Below, piece after piece: positions 1 through 5,568 of a stretch of 5,568 bases of DNA. The notes under the pieces are model-generated. The model was not told where the DNA came from. It saw only the letters and a program-made list of their open reading frames with translations, and ran no database searches. Numbering within the stretch: position 1 is the first letter of the stretch; each line of letters starts with the position of its first letter. Source of the stretch: an uncultured Pseudorhodoferax sp. GTDB lineage: Bacteria; Pseudomonadota; Gammaproteobacteria; Burkholderiales; Burkholderiaceae. A program made the translations under genes and the position numbers. The DNA lies in assembly GCA_913776795.1 (NCBI GenBank), contig CAJYRH010000381.1, positions 1 through 5,568 of the forward strand, written 5' to 3'.

Positions 1-2714
1 CGGCCGCCTTCCGCATCGGCATCGACCTGGGCACGACCCACACCGTGCTGGCGTTCGCGTCGATCGGTGGGGATGACATCCAGGTCTTCCCCGTCCCGCA
101 GAGCATCGCGGCCGGCGAGGTCGCGCCGCGACCGCTGCTGCCTTCGCTGCGCTTCCACGCGGCCGACGGTGCGCTTGCCACGGCGGACCTGCCGCTGCCC
201 TGGCCGTCGGACGAGCCGGCGATCCTGGGCGCGTTCGCGCGCGAACTGGGCCAGCAGACGCCCGGGCGGCTGGTGGCCAGCGCCAAGAGCTGGCTGTCGC
301 ACCCTGCCGTCGACCGCACCGCGGCGATCCTGCCCTGGGGCGCACCCGACGACGTGTCCAAGGTCTCGCCGCTGGAGGCCAGCGCGAGCTACCTGCGGCA
401 CCTGCGCCTGGCCTGGGACCTGGCCCACCCCGAAGCGCCACTTGCGCAGCAGCCGACCGTGCTCACGGTGCCTGCCTCCTTCGACGATGGCGCGCGCCAG
501 CTCACCTTGCAGGCCGCCAGCCTGGCTGGACTGGGTCCGGTCCATTTGATCGAGGAACCCCAGGCTGCGTTCTACGACTGGGTGTTCGCCCACCGCGCCG
601 ATCTCGCCACGGAGCTCGCCGCAACGCGCCGCTTGCTGGTGGTGGACGTGGGCGGCGGCACCACCGACCTCACGTTGATCGAGGTGACGCTGGATGCGCA
701 AGGCCAGCCGCAGCTCGCGCGCACCGGCGTGGGCGACCACCTGGTGCTGGGCGGCGACAACATGGACCTGGCCCTGGCGCGTTGGATCGAGCCGCGGCTG
801 TCCGGCGGCACGCCGGCAGCCCGGCTCAGCGCGGTCCAGCTGGCCCAGCTCACGCAGCGTTGCCGCAGCGCCAAGGAACGCCTGCTGGCGCCGGGCGGCC
901 CCTCGGAGACCACGGTCACGCTGCAGGGCAGCGGCAGCCGGCTGATCGGCGGCGCACGCTCGGCCACGCTGACACGCGCCGATGTGGACCGCCTGCTGGT
1001 CGAGGGCTTCTTCCCGCAGGTGCCGGCCGACGCCCAACCCCAGCGTGCCCGCGGCGCGCTGGTGGAATTCGGCCTGCCCTATGCCGCTGACGCCGCCATC
1101 ACGCGCCACATCGCCGCCTTCCTGCAGCGCCAGGGCGGAGCCCTGCCCGACACCGTGCTGCTCAACGGCGGCGTGTTCCACGCGGCGGTGCTGCGCGAAC
1201 GCCTGCTCGCCACGCTGCGCAGCTGGCAACCGGCCGGCGCCCAGCCGGTCCTCCTGCTGGAGGCGCCGCAGCTCGACGCCGCCGTCGCGCGCGGCGCCGT
1301 GGCCTACGCGATGGCGCGCGCCGGCAGCGCGCCGCGCATCCGTAGCGCCGCCGCACGTGCCTACTACCTTGCGCTCGAGGACGGCCAGGGCGTCTGCGTG
1401 CTGCCGCATGGCACGCCCGAGGGCGAGGCCGTGCGGCTCGAGGCGCGGCGCTTCAGCCTGCGCCTGGGGCGCCCGGTGCGCTTCAACCTCGCCACGAGCG
1501 CCGTCGACCTGCAGCACCGTGCCGGCGACCTGGTTGCGCTGCAGGACGGCCTGCAGCGCCTGCCACCGGTTGCCACCGTGCTGCAGCCCAGGGCCGGCGC
1601 CAGTGGCGAGGTGCAGGTGCTGCTGGATGCCCAGATCACCGAGGTCGGCACGCTGGAGATGCACTGTGTGGCCGCCGACGCACCGCGCCAGCGCTGGAAG
1701 CTCGAGTTCCAGCTGCGCGGCGATGCCACTGCGCAGGACGCCGACGCCCCGGTGGCCGCCCACCCGCACCTGCCCGAGGCGCTGGCCGCCATCGACCGCG
1801 TCTACGGCGACAAGAAGCAAGGCGTGGACGCCAGAGAGGTGCGCCAGCTGCGCGCCACGCTGGAACGCCTGCTCGGCGAGCGCGCCACCTGGCATGCGGC
1901 GCTGCTGCGCTCGCTGTTCGGCGCGCTGCTGAAGGGCGCCAGGCGCCGGCGCCGCTCGCTGCAGCACGAGCGCACCTGGTTCAACCTGGTCGGCTTCACG
2001 CTACGCCCTGGCTTCGGCGACGCGCTGGACGGCTGGCGCATGGAACGGATGTGGGAGCTGTTCGGCCCCGGTATCGCGCACAGCCACGACAGCCAGCAAT
2101 GGTCCGAATGGTGGCTGCTGTGGCGCCGCATCGCCGGCGGCCTGGACGCCGAACAGCAGCAGATGGTCTACGAGGTCATCGCCTACTACCTGCAGCCGCC
2201 AGGCTGCACCGACGTTCCGAGGCCCGACGGCCCGCCCATGCAGGCGCTGGACGAGCTGCTGCGCATGGCAGCCTCCTTTGAACGCATCGCCACGGCGCAG
2301 AAAACACAGTTCGGCGACTGGGTGCTCCAGCGGCTGGCGCAGCACCCGACGGCCGAACTCTGGTGGGCACTGGGCCGCCTGGGCGCACGCCAGCCCCTGT
2401 ACGCCAGCCTGCACCATGTGCTGCCGCCGGCCACGGCCCAGGCCTGGCTCGAACGCATCGATGCCATCGCGCCCGATTGGCCGCACGACGAGGCGGCCGC
2501 CTTCGCCGTGGCGCAGATCGCCCAGGCCACCGGCGACCGCGCCCGCGACCTGCCCGAGGCCTTGCGCCTGCAGGCTGCAGACCGGCTGCAAGCCGCCCGC
2601 GCCGCGCCGAGTTGGGTGGCGATGCTGCGGGAGGTGACCGTGCTGGGCGAGGCGGACCGGCGCCGCGTCTTCGGCGAGGCGCTGCCGACGGGCCTCGTGT
2701 TGCTGCCGGGGTGA
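1..2714 (+). CDS. Hsp70-family (DnaK-like) protein with C-terminal DUF3731 region, 5'-truncated by window edge
   Basis: Large non-canonical Hsp70 relative, probably a cytoplasmic ATP-dependent chaperone-like protein; its clients are unknown. The first full codon is at base 3 and 903 residues are visible (numbered from there). A GTG at base 45 could be taken as the start, but the frame is open upstream and encodes the Hsp70 phosphate-1 loop IGIDLGTTHT (residues 5-14). The true start therefore lies a short way before the window. Other ATPase-fold landmarks are AKSWLSH with K95 (possible counterpart of the catalytic lysine), IEEPQAAF (183-190), the phosphate-2 loop VDVGGGTTDLT (214-224) and NGGVF (388-392) in the adenosine region. 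After about residue 600 there is no canonical substrate-binding domain. Instead there is a Trp/Arg-rich helical region (RRRRRS, LRPGFG, EWWLLWRR) typical of DUF3731 DnaK-related proteins of about 900-950 residues. The TGA stop overlaps the next gene's promoter. The family call is firm; the biological role is not. Confidence 0.93.
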   Translation, partial: AAFRIGIDLGTTHTVLAFASIGGDDIQVFPVPQSIAAGEVAPRPLLPSLRFHAADGALATADLPLPWPSDEPAILGAFARELGQQTPGRLVASAKSWLSHPAVDRTAAILPWGAPDDVSKVSPLEASASYLRHLRLAWDLAHPEAPLAQQPTVLTVPASFDDGARQLTLQAASLAGLGPVHLIEEPQAAFYDWVFAHRADLATELAATRRLLVVDVGGGTTDLTLIEVTLDAQGQPQLARTGVGDHLVLGGDNMDLALARWIEPRLSGGTPAARLSAVQLAQLTQRCRSAKERLLAPGGPSETTVTLQGSGSRLIGGARSATLTRADVDRLLVEGFFPQVPADAQPQRARGALVEFGLPYAADAAITRHIAAFLQRQGGALPDTVLLNGGVFHAAVLRERLLATLRSWQPAGAQPVLLLEAPQLDAAVARGAVAYAMARAGSAPRIRSAAARAYYLALEDGQGVCVLPHGTPEGEAVRLEARRFSLRLGRPVRFNLATSAVDLQHRAGDLVALQDGLQRLPPVATVLQPRAGASGEVQVLLDAQITEVGTLEMHCVAADAPRQRWKLEFQLRGDATAQDADAPVAAHPHLPEALAAIDRVYGDKKQGVDAREVRQLRATLERLLGERATWHAALLRSLFGALLKGARRRRRSLQHERTWFNLVGFTLRPGFGDALDGWRMERMWELFGPGIAHSHDSQQWSEWWLLWRRIAGGLDAEQQQMVYEVIAYYLQPPGCTDVPRPDGPPMQALDELLRMAASFERIATAQKTQFGDWVLQRLAQHPTAELWWALGRLGARQPLYASLHHVLPPATAQAWLERIDAIAPDWPHDEAAAFAVAQIAQATGDRARDLPEALRLQAADRLQAARAAPSWVAMLREVTVLGEADRRRVFGEALPTGLVLLPG

Positions 2715-2739
2715 TCCAAACGGCAGCCGGGCGCGTAAG
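2712..2739 (+). promoter_or_regulatory. Predicted sigmaE (ECF11-type) promoter of the DUF2177 gene
   Basis: The -35 element TGATCC lies at 2712-2717 and the -10 element CGTAAG at 2734-2739, with a 16-base spacer. The same architecture, with an identical TGATCC and CGTAA, precedes the sigma-factor gene in this window, and TGATCC is the known -35 of Rhodobacter sphaeroides sigmaE. The TGA of the -35 is also the stop codon of the Hsp70 gene. Transcription would start near 2744-2747, leaving a leader of about 20-25 bases that contains the ribosome binding site. It is assigned by pattern and is not experimentally shown. Confidence 0.75.
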
Positions 2740-2754
2740 CCCGCGCACCACCAC

Positions 2755-2759
2755 TGGAG
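2755..2759 (+). promoter_or_regulatory. Ribosome binding site of the DUF2177 gene
   Basis: TGGAG lies 7 bases before the ATG at 2767. It supports that start, which also places the first membrane helix at the very N-terminus. Confidence 0.6.
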
Positions 2760-2766
2760 CCATCGC

Positions 2767-3195
2767 ATGCCACTGTCCCAGATCGCCATTGCCTATGTCG
2801 TCGCCGCACTCGTGTTCCTGGGGCTCGACGCCATTTGGCTGGGCAGCATGGCCGAGAAGCTGTACCGCCCGGCCATCGGCCACCTCATGGCCGACAAGTT
2901 CGCATTGGCGCCAGCGGTGGTGTTCTACGGGCTCTACCTGGGCGGCATCGTGTTCTTCGCCATCGCTCCTGCGCTGGAGGCGCGCCGGCCGGTGCTGACG
3001 GCGCTGGGCCATGGCGCGCTGCTGGGGCTCGTGGCCTACGGCACCTTCGACCTGACGAACCAGGCAGTGCTGAAGGACTGGCCCTGGCACGTGACGCTGG
3101 CGGACCTGGCCTGGGGCAGCTTCGTCACCGCCATGGCGGCGGCGGGAGGCACCGTTGCCGCACAGTGGCTGCTGGGCGCGCTGTCCAGGAATTGA
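2767..3195 (+). CDS. DUF2177 family four-helix inner-membrane protein
   Basis: A 142-residue integral membrane protein whose biochemical function is unknown. Four hydrophobic segments are visible, at about residues 5-26, 48-70, 77-97 and 111-136. Family-type motifs are LDAIWLG (20-26), YGTFDLTN (91-98) and the run W107, T110-L111, D113, W116-G117. Length matches the DUF2177 family, usually 130-145 residues. The ATG follows a TGGAG ribosome binding site. The gene starts 52 bases after the Hsp70 stop but has its own predicted sigmaE promoter in between, so it is probably not simply part of the Hsp70 operon. It converges on the anti-sigma gene. From that promoter I infer a membrane-related role in the photooxidative or singlet-oxygen response. 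The family assignment is strong; the role is inference. Confidence 0.9.
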   Translation: MPLSQIAIAYVVAALVFLGLDAIWLGSMAEKLYRPAIGHLMADKFALAPAVVFYGLYLGGIVFFAIAPALEARRPVLTALGHGALLGLVAYGTFDLTNQAVLKDWPWHVTLADLAWGSFVTAMAAAGGTVAAQWLLGALSRN

Positions 3196-3197
3196 AG

Positions 3198-3222
3198 CCA
3201 GGCGGCCGCCCGGCTCGCCTGG
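3198..3222 (+). terminator. Possible weak terminator / stem-loop after the DUF2177 gene
   Basis: CCAGGCG (3198-3204) and CGCCTGG (3216-3222) form a perfect 7-bp stem with an 11-base loop, 2 bases after the DUF2177 stop codon. No T-run follows, so it is not a textbook intrinsic terminator. It may stabilise the mRNA end or assist termination. Confidence 0.35.
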
Positions 3223-3256
3223 ACGGGCCGGCGGTGCGCACCGGGCGGCATGCGGA

Positions 3257-3284
3257 CTGCACACATGGCGCCATGGCGGTGCAG
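3257..3284. repeat. Compound inverted repeat between convergent genes
   Basis: Outer arms CTGCAC (3257-3262) and GTGCAG (3279-3284) enclose the perfect 12-base palindrome CATGGCGCCATG (3264-3275). A further 10-base palindrome, GGTGCGCACC, lies nearby at 3233-3242. The element sits in the 131-base gap between the DUF2177 gene and the convergent chrR gene, where it could act as a bidirectional RNA structure. It has no T-tract on either strand, and high GC makes chance palindromes common. Confidence 0.35.
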
Positions 3285-3326
3285 GCGCGGTAGGCGATCC
3301 TGCGCCCACCCGGCCACGTCCAGGCC

Positions 3327-3989
3327 TCACATCCCGACGATCGCCCCCAAGGTGCGCGCGAACAGCCCGTCGAACTCCAGCCGTCCTTCGATGGAGGCCA
3401 GGCAGATGCATTCGCTGCCCGCCTGCACCACGGGCTGGTGGTTCACCTGGGCGTCCGTGGCGTCGAAGTCGCCCGGGCCGAACTGGGCACGGCCGTCGTG
3501 GAAGCTGCCGTGCAGCACCTGCGTGAACTCGCGGTCGCTGTGCGTGTGCTGGGCGAGGTACATCCCGGCCGCAATGCGCAGCAGCACCACGTTGGCATCC
3601 GGGTCGCGCGGCAGGCGCACGCGCGCATAGCGCATGCCGGGCGCCATCCAGCGCCAACGCGTGATGCGGCAGCCCGCCAGCGCACGCGGCCAGTGCGCAC
3701 CGGCAGGCAGCGGTGGCAGTCCGCGCACCGGCACGGCCGCCGGCGTGGCGCGCGGCCGGTCGATGGCCCCCAGCGTGCGCGCCAGCGCATCGCCGCGCAA
3801 CGGTGCGGGCGCCAGTTCGTCCAGCAGCGCACCGCCGGCCGCCTCCAGCATGCGCAGCTGCGCCTGGCACAGCGCGCAGGATTCGACATGGCTGGCCATC
3901 ACCAGCGCGGGCGCTGCCGGCAGCTGGCCCGCGGCCAGGGCCAGCAGCAGGTCGTCGCCAGGATGGTGTTGGATGGACTCGGGACTCAT
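3327..3989 (-). CDS. chrR: ChrR-type zinc anti-sigma factor (cupin-containing)
   Basis: Cytoplasmic anti-sigma factor of 220 residues predicted to bind and silence the sigma factor encoded just upstream, releasing it on singlet oxygen or organic hydroperoxide. The N-terminal sigma-binding domain (about 1-85) has the zinc set H9, H34, C38, C41, seen as HHPGDD and HVESCALC. The C-terminal cupin-like sensing domain (about 105-200) has H148, H150, E154 and H184, seen as QHTHSDREF and NHQPV. As I recall the R. sphaeroides ChrR numbering, its second-site ligands are H141, H143, E147 and H177, so the offset is a constant 7. The cysteine pair C194/C196 (ECICLAS) falls where ChrR has C187/C189. Its ATG overlaps the sigma stop codon (ATGA), implying translational coupling and roughly balanced synthesis. 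No strong ribosome binding site was seen. All ligands are intact, so it is probably functional. Confidence 0.93.
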   Translation of the reverse strand: MSPESIQHHPGDDLLLALAAGQLPAAPALVMASHVESCALCQAQLRMLEAAGGALLDELAPAPLRGDALARTLGAIDRPRATPAAVPVRGLPPLPAGAHWPRALAGCRITRWRWMAPGMRYARVRLPRDPDANVVLLRIAAGMYLAQHTHSDREFTQVLHGSFHDGRAQFGPGDFDATDAQVNHQPVVQAGSECICLASIEGRLEFDGLFARTLGAIVGM

Positions 3990-4660
3990 GGCAGGGGGTC
4001 TTCAAAAGCGGCAAGCAGCCGCCGCAGGTGGGCCACGGCCAGCCGCACGCGCGACTTGACCGTGCCCAGGGGAATGCCCAGCTGCTCGGCGATGCGCGCA
4101 TGCGGCTGGTCTTCGTAATAGGAAAGCTGCAGCACCTGCACCTGCTCGGCGGGCAGCTGGCGCAGGGCCGTCTGCACGTGGCGCTCCATGCGCAGGGCAT
4201 GCAACCGGGCGGCCGGCTCCGGCGCGCCATGGGCCAGGGTGTCCAGGTCCACATCGTCGGCCTGCAGGGCGGCGCCGCCACCCTGGCGGCGGAAGCGGTC
4301 GACCCGCAGGTTGCGCGCGATGGTGAACACCCAGGTCGAGGCGCCGGCGTGGGACGGGTCGAACAGCGCAGCCTTGCGCCACAGCTGCACCATGGTCTCC
4401 TGGGCCAGGTCTTCCGCCAGGGCGTCGTCGGTGCCCGCGCGCAGCAGGTAGCTTTTGACGCGCGGCGCGAAGTGGCTGAACAGGCGGCCGAAGGCCTCGC
4501 GGTCGCCCGCATGGGCAACGGCGCGCACCCATTCGGCCAGCAACTCGGGACTGGGAGCGGTGGTGCGCGAAACGCTGGGAGGCACGATGGACAGGTGAAC
4601 GGGGCGCGCCCCCACTGCGCCAGGCTCTGGCGGTTCGGGCAGGCGGGGTTGCGGATCCAT
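3986..4660 (-). CDS. rpoE: ECF RNA polymerase sigma factor, RpoE/ECF11 type
   Basis: Extracytoplasmic-function sigma factor of 224 residues, partner of the overlapping chrR gene. Region 2 spans about residues 50-126, including core-binding DLAQETMVQLWRKAALFDP (84-102) and -10-recognition STWVFTIARNLRVDRFRR (108-125). Region 4 spans about 158-217, with the helix-turn-helix ARIAEQLGIPLGTVKSRVR (188-206) reading the -35. The wording closely follows sigmaE of Rhodobacter sphaeroides. The start is ATG at 4658-4660; the frame stays open upstream across the divergent gene, but that part is antisense and crosses the promoter. The next in-frame ATG is codon 90, too late. GTG codons 16 and 26 are alternative starts with no good ribosome binding site. 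With this start there is a proline-rich extension of about 40 residues before region 2. The gene is probably autoregulated from the promoter immediately upstream. Confidence 0.93.
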   Translation of the reverse strand: MDPQPRLPEPPEPGAVGARPVHLSIVPPSVSRTTAPSPELLAEWVRAVAHAGDREAFGRLFSHFAPRVKSYLLRAGTDDALAEDLAQETMVQLWRKAALFDPSHAGASTWVFTIARNLRVDRFRRQGGGAALQADDVDLDTLAHGAPEPAARLHALRMERHVQTALRQLPAEQVQVLQLSYYEDQPHARIAEQLGIPLGTVKSRVRLAVAHLRRLLAAFEDPLP

Positions 4661-4667
4661 GGGCCAT

Positions 4668-4695
4668 GTTACGCACCGTCTGCGGTGCTGGATCA
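4668..4695 (-). promoter_or_regulatory. Predicted autoregulatory sigmaE promoter of rpoE-chrR
   Basis: Reading the minus strand, TGATCC (4695-4690) is followed after 16 bases by CGTAAC (4673-4668). It matches the site in front of the DUF2177 gene in both elements and in spacing. Transcription should begin near 4661-4664, which is at or just before the ATG at 4660, so the message would be leaderless or nearly so. Autoregulation is usual for ECF sigma factors of this type. Confidence 0.8.
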
Positions 4696-4721
4696 CCCGA
4701 GCAATCCAAATGCAGCACCGC
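4682..4721. repeat. 9-bp dyad spanning the divergent promoter region
   Basis: GCGGTGCTG (4682-4690) and CAGCACCGC (4713-4721) are perfect inverted copies separated by 22 bases, with arm centres 31 bases apart (about three helical turns). Each arm lies within the -35/-10 spacer of one of the two divergent promoters; the left arm also touches the last base of the rpoE -35. Neither predicted transcript would contain it, so any role would be at the DNA level. The bound protein, if any, is unknown. Confidence 0.55.
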
Positions 4722-4729
4722 CGCGTACA
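4702..4729 (+). promoter_or_regulatory. Predicted sigmaE promoter of the FAD-oxidoreductase gene
   Basis: CAATCC (4702-4707) and CGTACA (4724-4729) are separated by 16 bases, the spacing of the other two sigmaE sites in this window. The -35 departs from TGATCC at its first two bases, so it may be weaker. The predicted start near 4734-4737 leaves a leader of about 56-59 bases before the ATG at 4793. COG2907-type genes belong to the conserved sigmaE regulon in other proteobacteria, which supports the call. Confidence 0.65.
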
Positions 4730-4782
4730 ACACGCCAGAATCCCGGGCCACGCACCGCCCCAGTCCGGGCACCCAGGTCCAC

Positions 4783-4787
4783 AAGGA
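4783..4787 (+). promoter_or_regulatory. Ribosome binding site of the FAD-oxidoreductase gene
   Basis: AAGGA lies 5 bases before the ATG at 4793 and fixes that start, 18-20 residues before the first strand of the FAD-binding fold. Confidence 0.65.
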
Positions 4788-4792
4788 ACACC

Positions 4793-5568
4793 ATGCCTCA
4801 CGCCAGCACCGCCGATCCGGCCGCCCTGCACCACAGCATTTCCGGGCAACCGCTGCGCATCGCCGTGGTCGGCAGCGGCATCGCCGGGCTGTCGGCAGCC
4901 TGGCTGCTGGGGCAGCGCCACCGCGTCGACGTGTTCGAGGCCGACGGCCGGCCCGGCGGCCACAGCCACACGGTGGACGCACCGGGTCCGGGTGGCTCGG
5001 TGGCCGTGGACACCGGCTTCATCGTCTACAACGAGCCGGCGTATCCCAACCTCACCGCGCTGTTCGCCCACCTGGGGGTGGCCACGCAGGCGACCGACAT
5101 GTCCTTCGGCGTGAGCCTGGACAACGGCGCGATGGAGTACGCCGGCACCGACCTCAACGGCCTCTTCGCCCAGCGCTCCAACCTGCTGCGCCCGCGCTTT
5201 TGGCGCATGCTGCACGAGCTGCTTCGCTTTTACCGCGAGGCCCCCCGCGACGCCGCCGCGGCCGGCCTGCAGCCGCTGGACGACTACCTGGACGAGCACG
5301 GCTACGGCGCGGCGCTGCGTGAAGACCACCTGTACCCCATGGCCGCGGCGATCTGGTCGACGCCGGCTGCCCAGGTCGGCCGCTATCCCACCGCGGCGTT
5401 CGTGCGCTTTTGCGAGAACCATGGCCTCTTGCGCGTGAGCGGCCGGCCGCGCTGGCGCACCGTGCAGGGCGGCAGCCGCAGCTACGTGCGCGCACTCACC
5501 CAGGGCATGGGCGAAGGCCTGCACCTGGACAGCGCCGTTCTGGAGGTGCAGCGCGGCGATGCAGGCGT
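4793..5568 (+). CDS. FAD-dependent oxidoreductase, amine-oxidase-like (COG2907 type), 3'-truncated by window edge
   Basis: Flavoprotein of the NAD/FAD-binding amine-oxidase-like group; the true substrate is not established. 258 codons are visible with no stop before the window ends; relatives are about 430-450 residues. A Rossmann FAD site is visible: GSGIAG (27-32) after strand RIAVV, E49 at the end of the second strand (VDVFEA) for the ribose, then RPGGHSHTV (53-61). Typical family blocks follow: VDTGFIVYNEPAYPNL (72-87), TDMSF (101-105), GTDLNGLFAQR (118-128), LRPRFW (132-137) and AAAIWSTP (184-191). The gene is divergent from rpoE-chrR, with a predicted sigmaE promoter and a good ribosome binding site. 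In R. sphaeroides the homologue (RSP1091, from memory) is in the sigmaE regulon next to a DUF1365 gene and near a cyclopropane-fatty-acyl-phospholipid synthase. Similar genes may follow beyond the window; that is a prediction. Confidence 0.92.
   Translation, partial: MPHASTADPAALHHSISGQPLRIAVVGSGIAGLSAAWLLGQRHRVDVFEADGRPGGHSHTVDAPGPGGSVAVDTGFIVYNEPAYPNLTALFAHLGVATQATDMSFGVSLDNGAMEYAGTDLNGLFAQRSNLLRPRFWRMLHELLRFYREAPRDAAAAGLQPLDDYLDEHGYGAALREDHLYPMAAAIWSTPAAQVGRYPTAAFVRFCENHGLLRVSGRPRWRTVQGGSRSYVRALTQGMGEGLHLDSAVLEVQRGDAG

Follow-up and report, generated by a model that had tools for sequence, protein, structure and literature searches.

Predicted ECF11-type promoters ahead of the sigma factor, FAD and DUF2177 genes in a Pseudorhodoferax locus, with a probably near-leaderless sigma mRNA

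The stretch of DNA considered here, called the window, comprises 5,568 nucleotides from an uncultured Pseudorhodoferax sp. of the Burkholderiaceae (assembly GCA_913776795.1, contig CAJYRH010000381.1, positions 1 to 5,568). It carries genes for a predicted sigma factor of the extracytoplasmic function (ECF) type and its putative anti-sigma factor ChrR, the gene of a DUF2177 membrane protein, and the beginning of a gene whose product is predicted to bind nicotinamide adenine dinucleotide (NAD) or flavin adenine dinucleotide (FAD), hereafter the FAD gene. Copies of one promoter architecture precede the sigma, FAD and DUF2177 genes, as follows:

3′ part of a gene in the window: Hsp70-like protein (PF00012 and DUF3731), whose stop codon TGA forms the first bases of the −35 element of the DUF2177 site
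2712..2738, plus strand: predicted ECF11-type promoter of the DUF2177 gene (−35 TGATCC at 2712–2717, N16, −10 CGTA at 2734–2737)
2767..3195, plus strand: DUF2177 membrane protein of 142 amino acids with four predicted long helices (PF09945, E 1.8e-44)
3327..3989, minus strand: chrR, predicted zinc anti-sigma factor with a ZAS domain and a cupin (TIGR02451; PDB 2z2s, E 4.9e-33)
3986..4660, minus strand: predicted ECF11 sigma factor of the RpoE type (Sigma70_r2 and r4_2; PDB 2q1z RpoE, E 4.6e-34)
4669..4695, minus strand: predicted ECF11 promoter of the sigma–chrR operon (−35 TGATCC at 4695–4690, N16, −10 CGTA at 4673–4670)
4702..4728, plus strand: predicted divergent ECF11 promoter of the FAD gene (−35 CAATCC at 4702–4707, N16, −10 CGTA at 4724–4727)
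4793..5566, plus strand: 5′ part of the NAD/FAD-binding gene of the amine-oxidase type (PF13450, PF01593), extending past the end of the window

The first-pass annotation had placed the pattern NNATCC, 16 bases and CGTA before the DUF2177, sigma and FAD genes, and all three copies were found where it put them. When spacers of 14 to 18 bases were permitted between ATCC and CGTA, the window yielded three matches against 0.09 expected, a number reached in none of 200 shuffled sequences, and the spacer was 16 in every one. The full TGATCC and CGTAA had been claimed for two of the sites, and those of DUF2177 and sigma are indeed the only exact matches to TGATCC-N16-CGTAA in the window. With up to three mismatches the same search gives only a weak signal (10 matches, a count attained by 6 of 200 shuffles, against 4.4 expected). 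As to the distances from the start codons, which had been described as plausible throughout, the description suits DUF2177 (29 nt from CGTA to an ATG preceded by GGAG) and FAD (65 nt) but not sigma, where a gap of 9 nt leaves almost no 5′ leader.

The motif agrees with the ECF11 consensus published for Pseudomonas syringae, TGATCC-N16-CGTA (PMC5507510), where TGATCCnnnnnnnnnnnnnnnnCGTA is the consensus of the ECF11-type sigma factor PSPTO_1043 and has promoter-lux and quantitative reverse transcription PCR support; this and the other papers cited are represented here by excerpts, and what is said of them holds for those excerpts. The sigma and chrR genes overlap by ATGA. The sigma protein has regions 2 and 4 of an ECF sigma factor, and its closest sequence in the PDB is Rhodobacter sphaeroides RpoE, just as the closest to the window's ChrR, which scores 186 bits against TIGR02451 (cut-off 124.5), is R. 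sphaeroides ChrR. The zinc ligands (H..H-x3-C-x2-C) and the cupin H, H, E and H, taken from the list for R. sphaeroides ChrR (PMC6852236), are invariant in all six sequences compared. Since motif consensus, nearest PDB pair and ChrR ligands agree, the system is, judged from its sequence, an ECF11 (RpoE–ChrR) system.

Three characterized systems may be compared with it. In R. sphaeroides, singlet oxygen leads to loss of ChrR, and RpoE drives its own operon and RSP_1091–1087 (PMC3818230, PMC6852236, PMC7380195); the two operons adjoin and each has an RpoE promoter ahead of it (PMC3818230), as the sigma and FAD genes do here. RSP_1091 and RSP_1090 produce furan fatty acids and are required for the turnover of ChrR (PMC3818230, PMC6852236, PMC7380195). 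In contrast, DUF2177 in the window forms a unit that has a predicted promoter to itself and is convergent to sigma–chrR, and no such unit is named for R. sphaeroides in the excerpts. The PSPTO_1043/1042 regulon of P. syringae shares the TGATCCn16CGTA consensus and a site ahead of the sigma gene, but its phrB–cfa cluster is a separate locus and DUF2177 is not among the targets reported in the excerpts (PMC5507510). Similarly, rpoE2–chrR of Shewanella oneidensis is autoregulated and has TGATCC and CGTAAT or CGTATT elements with transcription starts mapped downstream of them, whereas its other targets differ (pgpD, hemH2, phr) (PMC4336711). The motif is thus already known, and so, in R. sphaeroides, are autoregulation and the adjacent FAD operon. 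As far as the literature was searched, what is new is the placing of DUF2177 among the ECF11 targets and the conserved spacing of the sigma start codon.

The three sites recur in related genomes. Among 31 related loci, the seven most similar, from Pseudorhodoferax, Variovorax boronicumulans, Ramlibacter and a Burkholderiales metagenome-assembled genome, were read closely (in what follows, L numbers denote loci and G numbers genomes). Six of the seven have an exact site directly ahead of DUF2177, six a core-exact site before FAD, and six an exact site before sigma, the seventh sigma site (L005) having one mismatch. The Ramlibacter locus L006 departs from the pattern in that its nearest site lies about 630 bp upstream of DUF2177, its FAD relative is found elsewhere, and a cfa gene stands divergent to sigma in the place of FAD. 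On a wider scale, we compared 91 sigma loci, namely the 80 best-scoring of 111 ChrR hits (from which the two ChrR hits of Pseudorhodoferax aquiterrae were excluded), ten relatives and the window; three of the ten relatives (G537, G602, G617) had been picked by the back-to-back promoter pattern itself. The site before sigma is exact in 50 and has one mismatch in 19, two or more in 20, and no sigma match was obtained in two. A sigma promoter that departs from the consensus at one position or none is therefore present in 69 of 91 loci, or in 65 of 87 if the window and the three loci picked by the pattern are set aside; with about 480 positions searched for the best site, we estimate that chance would produce such a match in about one locus of 91.

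The FAD gene is divergent in 40 of these 69 loci, and 33 of the 40 have a core-exact FAD site (29/36 without the window and the pattern-found loci). In the window 6 bp separate the −35 elements of sigma and FAD, which face each other. The ATCC cores are 10 bp apart here and 8 to 92 bp apart over the 33 core-exact loci, with separations as low as 6 bp in further loci beside sigma, and at the shortest separations two polymerases may exclude each other. Of 149 genomes of relatives, 15 contain the back-to-back pattern, eight of these having it between sigma and FAD; in G422's class it was found in 28 of the 385 genomes, 16 of them beside a sigma relative, compared with 1 of 385 for the reversed-pattern control. 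We also considered whether the back-to-back −35 elements are helically phased, with a period of 10.5; subsets gave p 0.007 (28 gaps), p 0.047 (24 gaps, after thinning of relatives) and p 0.04 (14 new gaps), but the idea was dropped because the 38 pooled gaps gave p 0.39. In L297 (G175) and L298 (G271) the pattern lies beside an FAD relative, with DUF2177 about 1.1–1.2 kb away and no ChrR detected; either it arose there by chance or ChrR was missed. In L310, DUF2177 and FAD themselves flank a back-to-back pair of sites.

The short gap between promoter and start codon at sigma is likewise conserved. In the 40 loci with divergent FAD, the first in-frame ATG follows CGTA after 8 nt (22 loci), 9 nt (15) or 10 nt (1) and is absent there in two, so that a spacing of 8–9 nt is found in 37 of 40, or 33 of 36 without the window and the pattern-found loci. 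Among the 29 loci without divergent FAD, the ATG stands at 8–9 nt in seven, at 31–46 nt in 15 and elsewhere in seven. Transcription starts a few bases past the −10 element of an ECF promoter. The sigma ATG would therefore lie at the start of the transcript or within a few bases of it, and on the strength of this spacing the sigma mRNA is probably leaderless or near-leaderless. A gap of 8 nt is also found at a cfa gene about 13 kb away, described below.

Alternatively, the sigma protein may begin at a downstream in-frame GTG, which is present in the window as codon 16, and the mRNA would then have an ordinary leader of about 45 nt. Two annotated sigma starts on rhizobial plasmids, 75 nt (L325) and 82 nt (L322) past CGTA, lend this some support. 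It is nevertheless unlikely, in that the ATG keeps its place 8–9 nt past CGTA in nearly all loci with divergent FAD while the other candidate starts shift position, and an LSIV-like peptide between this ATG and the sigma domain is common to the window and L005. The GC content by codon position of the first sigma codons did not discriminate between the candidate starts. The annotated start of a third plasmid locus, L327, lies upstream of the promoter; in L322, L325 and L327 alike, annotation conflicts with an ATG found 9–10 nt after CGTA, and these annotated starts may be wrong.

The near-leaderless reading concerns the sigma gene; how far the regulon extends was approached by scanning genomes for TGATCC-N16-CGTA, a check that the first-pass annotation had itself proposed. 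Across the genomes of seven relatives, 46 exact matches to the consensus have the spacing N16, as compared with a mean of 26.1 for each other spacing (N11–15 and N17–21), giving p 6e-4 in a test that ignores codon-phase background. The reversed-pattern control was not relied on for this excess because it contains CTAG, a sequence rare in bacterial genomes. There is thus an excess over other spacings, with sites at cfa genes, but N21 and N15 come close: in the three genomes with all sites listed, N16 is found 21 times, N21 18, N15 16, N12 13 and the others 4–11 times. The excess amounts to about three sites per genome, which fits one each for sigma, DUF2177 and a cfa gene. Of the 46 hits, 16 were assigned to sigma (6), DUF2177 (6) and cfa (4); two more lie at the place of cfa, where the gene was not read, and by the spacing control the other 28 should be mostly background.

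The cfa sites bear on the notion of a local regulon. The recurrence of the three sites before orthologous genes upholds it, but the regulon is not only local, since a cfa gene about 13 kb off has the same promoter. Five Pseudorhodoferax and Variovorax genomes have a site 12.5–13.9 kb from the DUF2177 site, and the gene behind it, read in three, is cfa by Pfam CMAS (L054) or has the same N-terminus (L034, L056). The Ramlibacter cfa gene L059 (Pfam CMAS) adjoins sigma. DUF1365 and a further gene of the cfa type stand behind the FAD gene in P. aquiterrae, an order that resembles a furan fatty acid operon. This reading draws on the naming of R. sphaeroides RSP1091, RSP1090 (a DUF1365 protein) and RSP2144, and of R. 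palustris RPA2571, RPA2570 and RPA2569, as UfaD, UfaO and UfaM of furan fatty acid synthesis (PMC7380195). By the same analogy of gene order, FAD–DUF1365–cfa, the FAD gene of the window is probably UfaD/RSP_1091-like. FAD, DUF1365, cfa and photolyase count as core genes of ECF11 regulons; of these, FAD lies in the window, and DUF1365 and cfa are found beside it in P. aquiterrae.

Recurrence before the orthologues of sigma, FAD and DUF2177 supports placing the three units under this kind of sigma factor. That a single sigma factor is responsible, as had been proposed, is not proven, because P. aquiterrae has a second sigma–ChrR pair (L192, G001:C41:1000-16000; sigma 6969-7499, ChrR 7529-8146), 58% (sigma) and 56% (ChrR) identical to that of the window; the 15 kb read around this second pair yielded no NNATC(C/T)-N16-CGTA site. 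Another or an additional ECF sigma factor of this sort could read the promoters, so that the regulon would be shared. We regard this as improbable. The second pair was found in one relative only, 105 of 108 genomes with ChrR have one ChrR hit, and the site precedes the sigma gene itself in most loci.

With control by the locus's own sigma factor preferred, the third target, DUF2177, remains to be considered. Its identification is firm (151.2 bits against a Pfam gathering cut-off of 26.9), several Trp, Tyr and Asp residues are invariant, and the AlphaFold2 model has four long helices with a mean predicted local distance difference test (pLDDT) score of 93.7; a PDB sequence search with DUF2177 found no relative. 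Among 398 Pseudomonadota genomes, DUF2177 is present in 64, ChrR (E ≤ 1e-15) in 108 and both in 36 (Fisher p 6.6e-8, in a test that ignores kinship). In a set of 150 Burkholderiales genomes, DUF2177 was found in 10 and ChrR above the cut-off in one, P. aquiterrae itself. Sites were scored at 64 DUF2177 genes, that is, all hits except that of P. aquiterrae. Besides the few exact sites discussed below, two further DUF2177 genes in ChrR genomes have a one-mismatch site at N16; near-sites at N15 or N17 were not counted, including two with one mismatch at N15 (G528, G372) that run into the beginning of the DUF2177 match. When longer stretches were scanned, NGATCC-N16-CGTA turned up ahead of DUF2177 in 7 of 69 loci on the gene's own strand and in none of 69 on the opposite one; one of the seven (L133) is the sigma promoter of a sigma–chrR–DUF2177 operon. 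In six loci of genomes without ChrR at E ≤ 1e-15 (L141, L142, L143, L152, L166, L170), DUF2177 lies near an FAD relative.

Rhizobial plasmids provide a comparison outside the Burkholderiales. A tblastn search found DUF2177 in 59 plasmid records, and 13 rhizobial loci were opened. Eight of them repeat the three-promoter layout of the window, in that sites with no more than one mismatch precede DUF2177, sigma and FAD alike: Mesorhizobium terrae, Shinella zoogloeoides, Shinella sp. PSBB067, Rhizobium sp. CIAT894, Phyllobacterium sp. T1018 and sp. 628, Ensifer adhaerens W2-B9 and Ensifer sp. PDNC004. DUF2177 comes after sigma–chrR, behind the sigma promoter, in two others (Rhizobium daejeonense, E. 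adhaerens Casida A). The remaining three, R. johnstonii 3841, R. leguminosarum RCAM1365 and R. lusitanum, show no consensus site serving DUF2177, and the R. lusitanum locus gave no ChrR match. In the former two (L326, L331) DUF2177 stands directly before sigma–chrR, and no consensus site precedes either. The rhizobial ECF11 islands L322–L329 also hold, in various members, genes for DUF2147, DUF1295, lipocalin, heme-binding proteins, heme oxygenase, ferrochelatase, photolyase and DUF1365. Together with the match to the published consensus and the recurrence in Burkholderiales, these loci support the earlier proposal that a shared sigma promoter architecture links the units.

The DUF2177 site of the window requires one further remark, since the TGA with which it opens also terminates the Hsp70-like gene, an arrangement shared by L001, L002, L003 and L007. 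Two Hsp70-like genes lie near DUF2177 in L001, L002, L003, L004 and L007, and the second is about 42–43% identical to that of the window over the matched part. An equally exact site is present in L004 and L005. There the reading frame that leads into the TGA stays open over just 88 and 81 codons, respectively, and does not correspond to the Hsp70-like gene, L004 retaining a few residues that resemble the Hsp70-like C-terminus; nor does a long Hsp70-like frame end at the TGA in the seven rhizobial loci with TGATCC. The stop codon alone thus fails to explain the site. That sigma and FAD are the sole true targets, the DUF2177 site being a chance match eased by this TGA and its gene being read from a housekeeping promoter, is very improbable: it could appeal to the shared stop codon and to the mere 5 of 36 DUF2177 genes of ChrR genomes with an N16 site of at most one mismatch within 300 bp, but the site recurs 24–37 nt before DUF2177 in the eight rhizobial loci, where no frame of more than 160 codons ends at it, and in two more loci DUF2177 sits in the sigma operon.

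Taken together, the data suggest that the window represents an ECF11 (RpoE–ChrR) singlet-oxygen regulon with promoters ahead of sigma, FAD and DUF2177 and a near-leaderless sigma mRNA, a reading to which we assign a probability of about 0.88. By analogy with the known systems, ChrR would hold the sigma factor until oxidation brings about the loss of ChrR, and the freed sigma factor would guide RNA polymerase to TGATCC-N16-CGTA sites. The site before sigma would drive its own operon and so create positive feedback, with a transcript that would begin within a few bases of the ATG and be translated in leaderless or near-leaderless fashion; the back-to-back site would drive a FAD–DUF1365–cfa operon, counterparts of which produce furan fatty acids in Rhodobacter; and the third would drive DUF2177, a four-helix membrane protein that may be an added membrane component of a loop otherwise like that of R. 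sphaeroides.

Several observations weigh against this reading. The FAD site lacks the TG of the −35 element and the A after CGTA, and is thus off consensus at −35. No site within one mismatch (20 loci) or no sigma match (2) was found in 22 of the 91 sigma loci. The genome-wide N16 excess is modest, and 28 of the 64 DUF2177 genomes are without ChrR at E ≤ 1e-15. An exact site within 300 bp of DUF2177 is found in only 3 of the 36 genomes with ChrR, and in none of the 28 without; the wiring of DUF2177 to ECF11, as judged from these sites, is real but far from universal. Finally, a ChrR system of Stenotrophomonas is reported not to serve singlet-oxygen tolerance (PMC11832516), and for this reason singlet oxygen cannot be assumed to be the signal.

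An independent link between DUF2177 and singlet oxygen comes from the green alga Chlamydomonas, in which DUF2177, CFA1, CFA2, DUF1365, DUF1295 and SOUL genes are among the SAK1-dependent genes induced by singlet oxygen, the log2 change of the DUF2177 gene being 3.25 in wild type and 0.08 in sak1 (PMC4067076). Bacterial ECF11 islands, too, hold cfa, DUF1365 and DUF1295 genes and, once, a gene for a heme-binding protein. Unlike them, the alga employs a eukaryotic regulator and no ECF sigma factor, and the homology of the algal DUF2177 protein is that given by the label in the paper (PMC4067076). The CFA parallel between alga and bacteria has already been pointed out (PMC8491031); DUF2177 was not seen mentioned in the excerpts of that paper. 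Among the matches listed and the excerpts on DUF2177, no paper linking DUF2177 to ChrR was found, although the core-regulon paper of Dufour (2008) may still list a DUF2177 gene. Searches under COG4852, which we take to be the COG number of DUF2177, found no literature; none of the matches listed joined "leaderless" with ChrR, and ChrR and ECF11 terms were not found in PMC6180224.

It is tempting to speculate that the singlet-oxygen response has in DUF2177 a core effector that has so far been overlooked. Its wiring to ECF11 would take at least three forms (a promoter of its own, a sigma–chrR–DUF2177 operon and a bidirectional promoter that it shares with FAD), a homologue would have been recruited to the same response in a green alga, and the sigma mRNA would be leaderless as a conserved trait; this broader proposal is tentative, and we hold it at somewhat less than even odds. 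If it is true, a leaderless sigma mRNA could keep translation going when stress hampers normal initiation. The spacing of 8–9 nt predicts such mRNAs and suggests errors in the annotation of some sigma starts. DUF2177 would enter a well-studied photo-oxidative regulon, backed by the comparison of Burkholderiales and Rhizobiales and by the independent record of algal induction, and its function can therefore be sought in membrane lipid oxidation. The three-promoter layout may, in addition, serve as a sequence signature for locating ECF11 targets in non-phototrophs.

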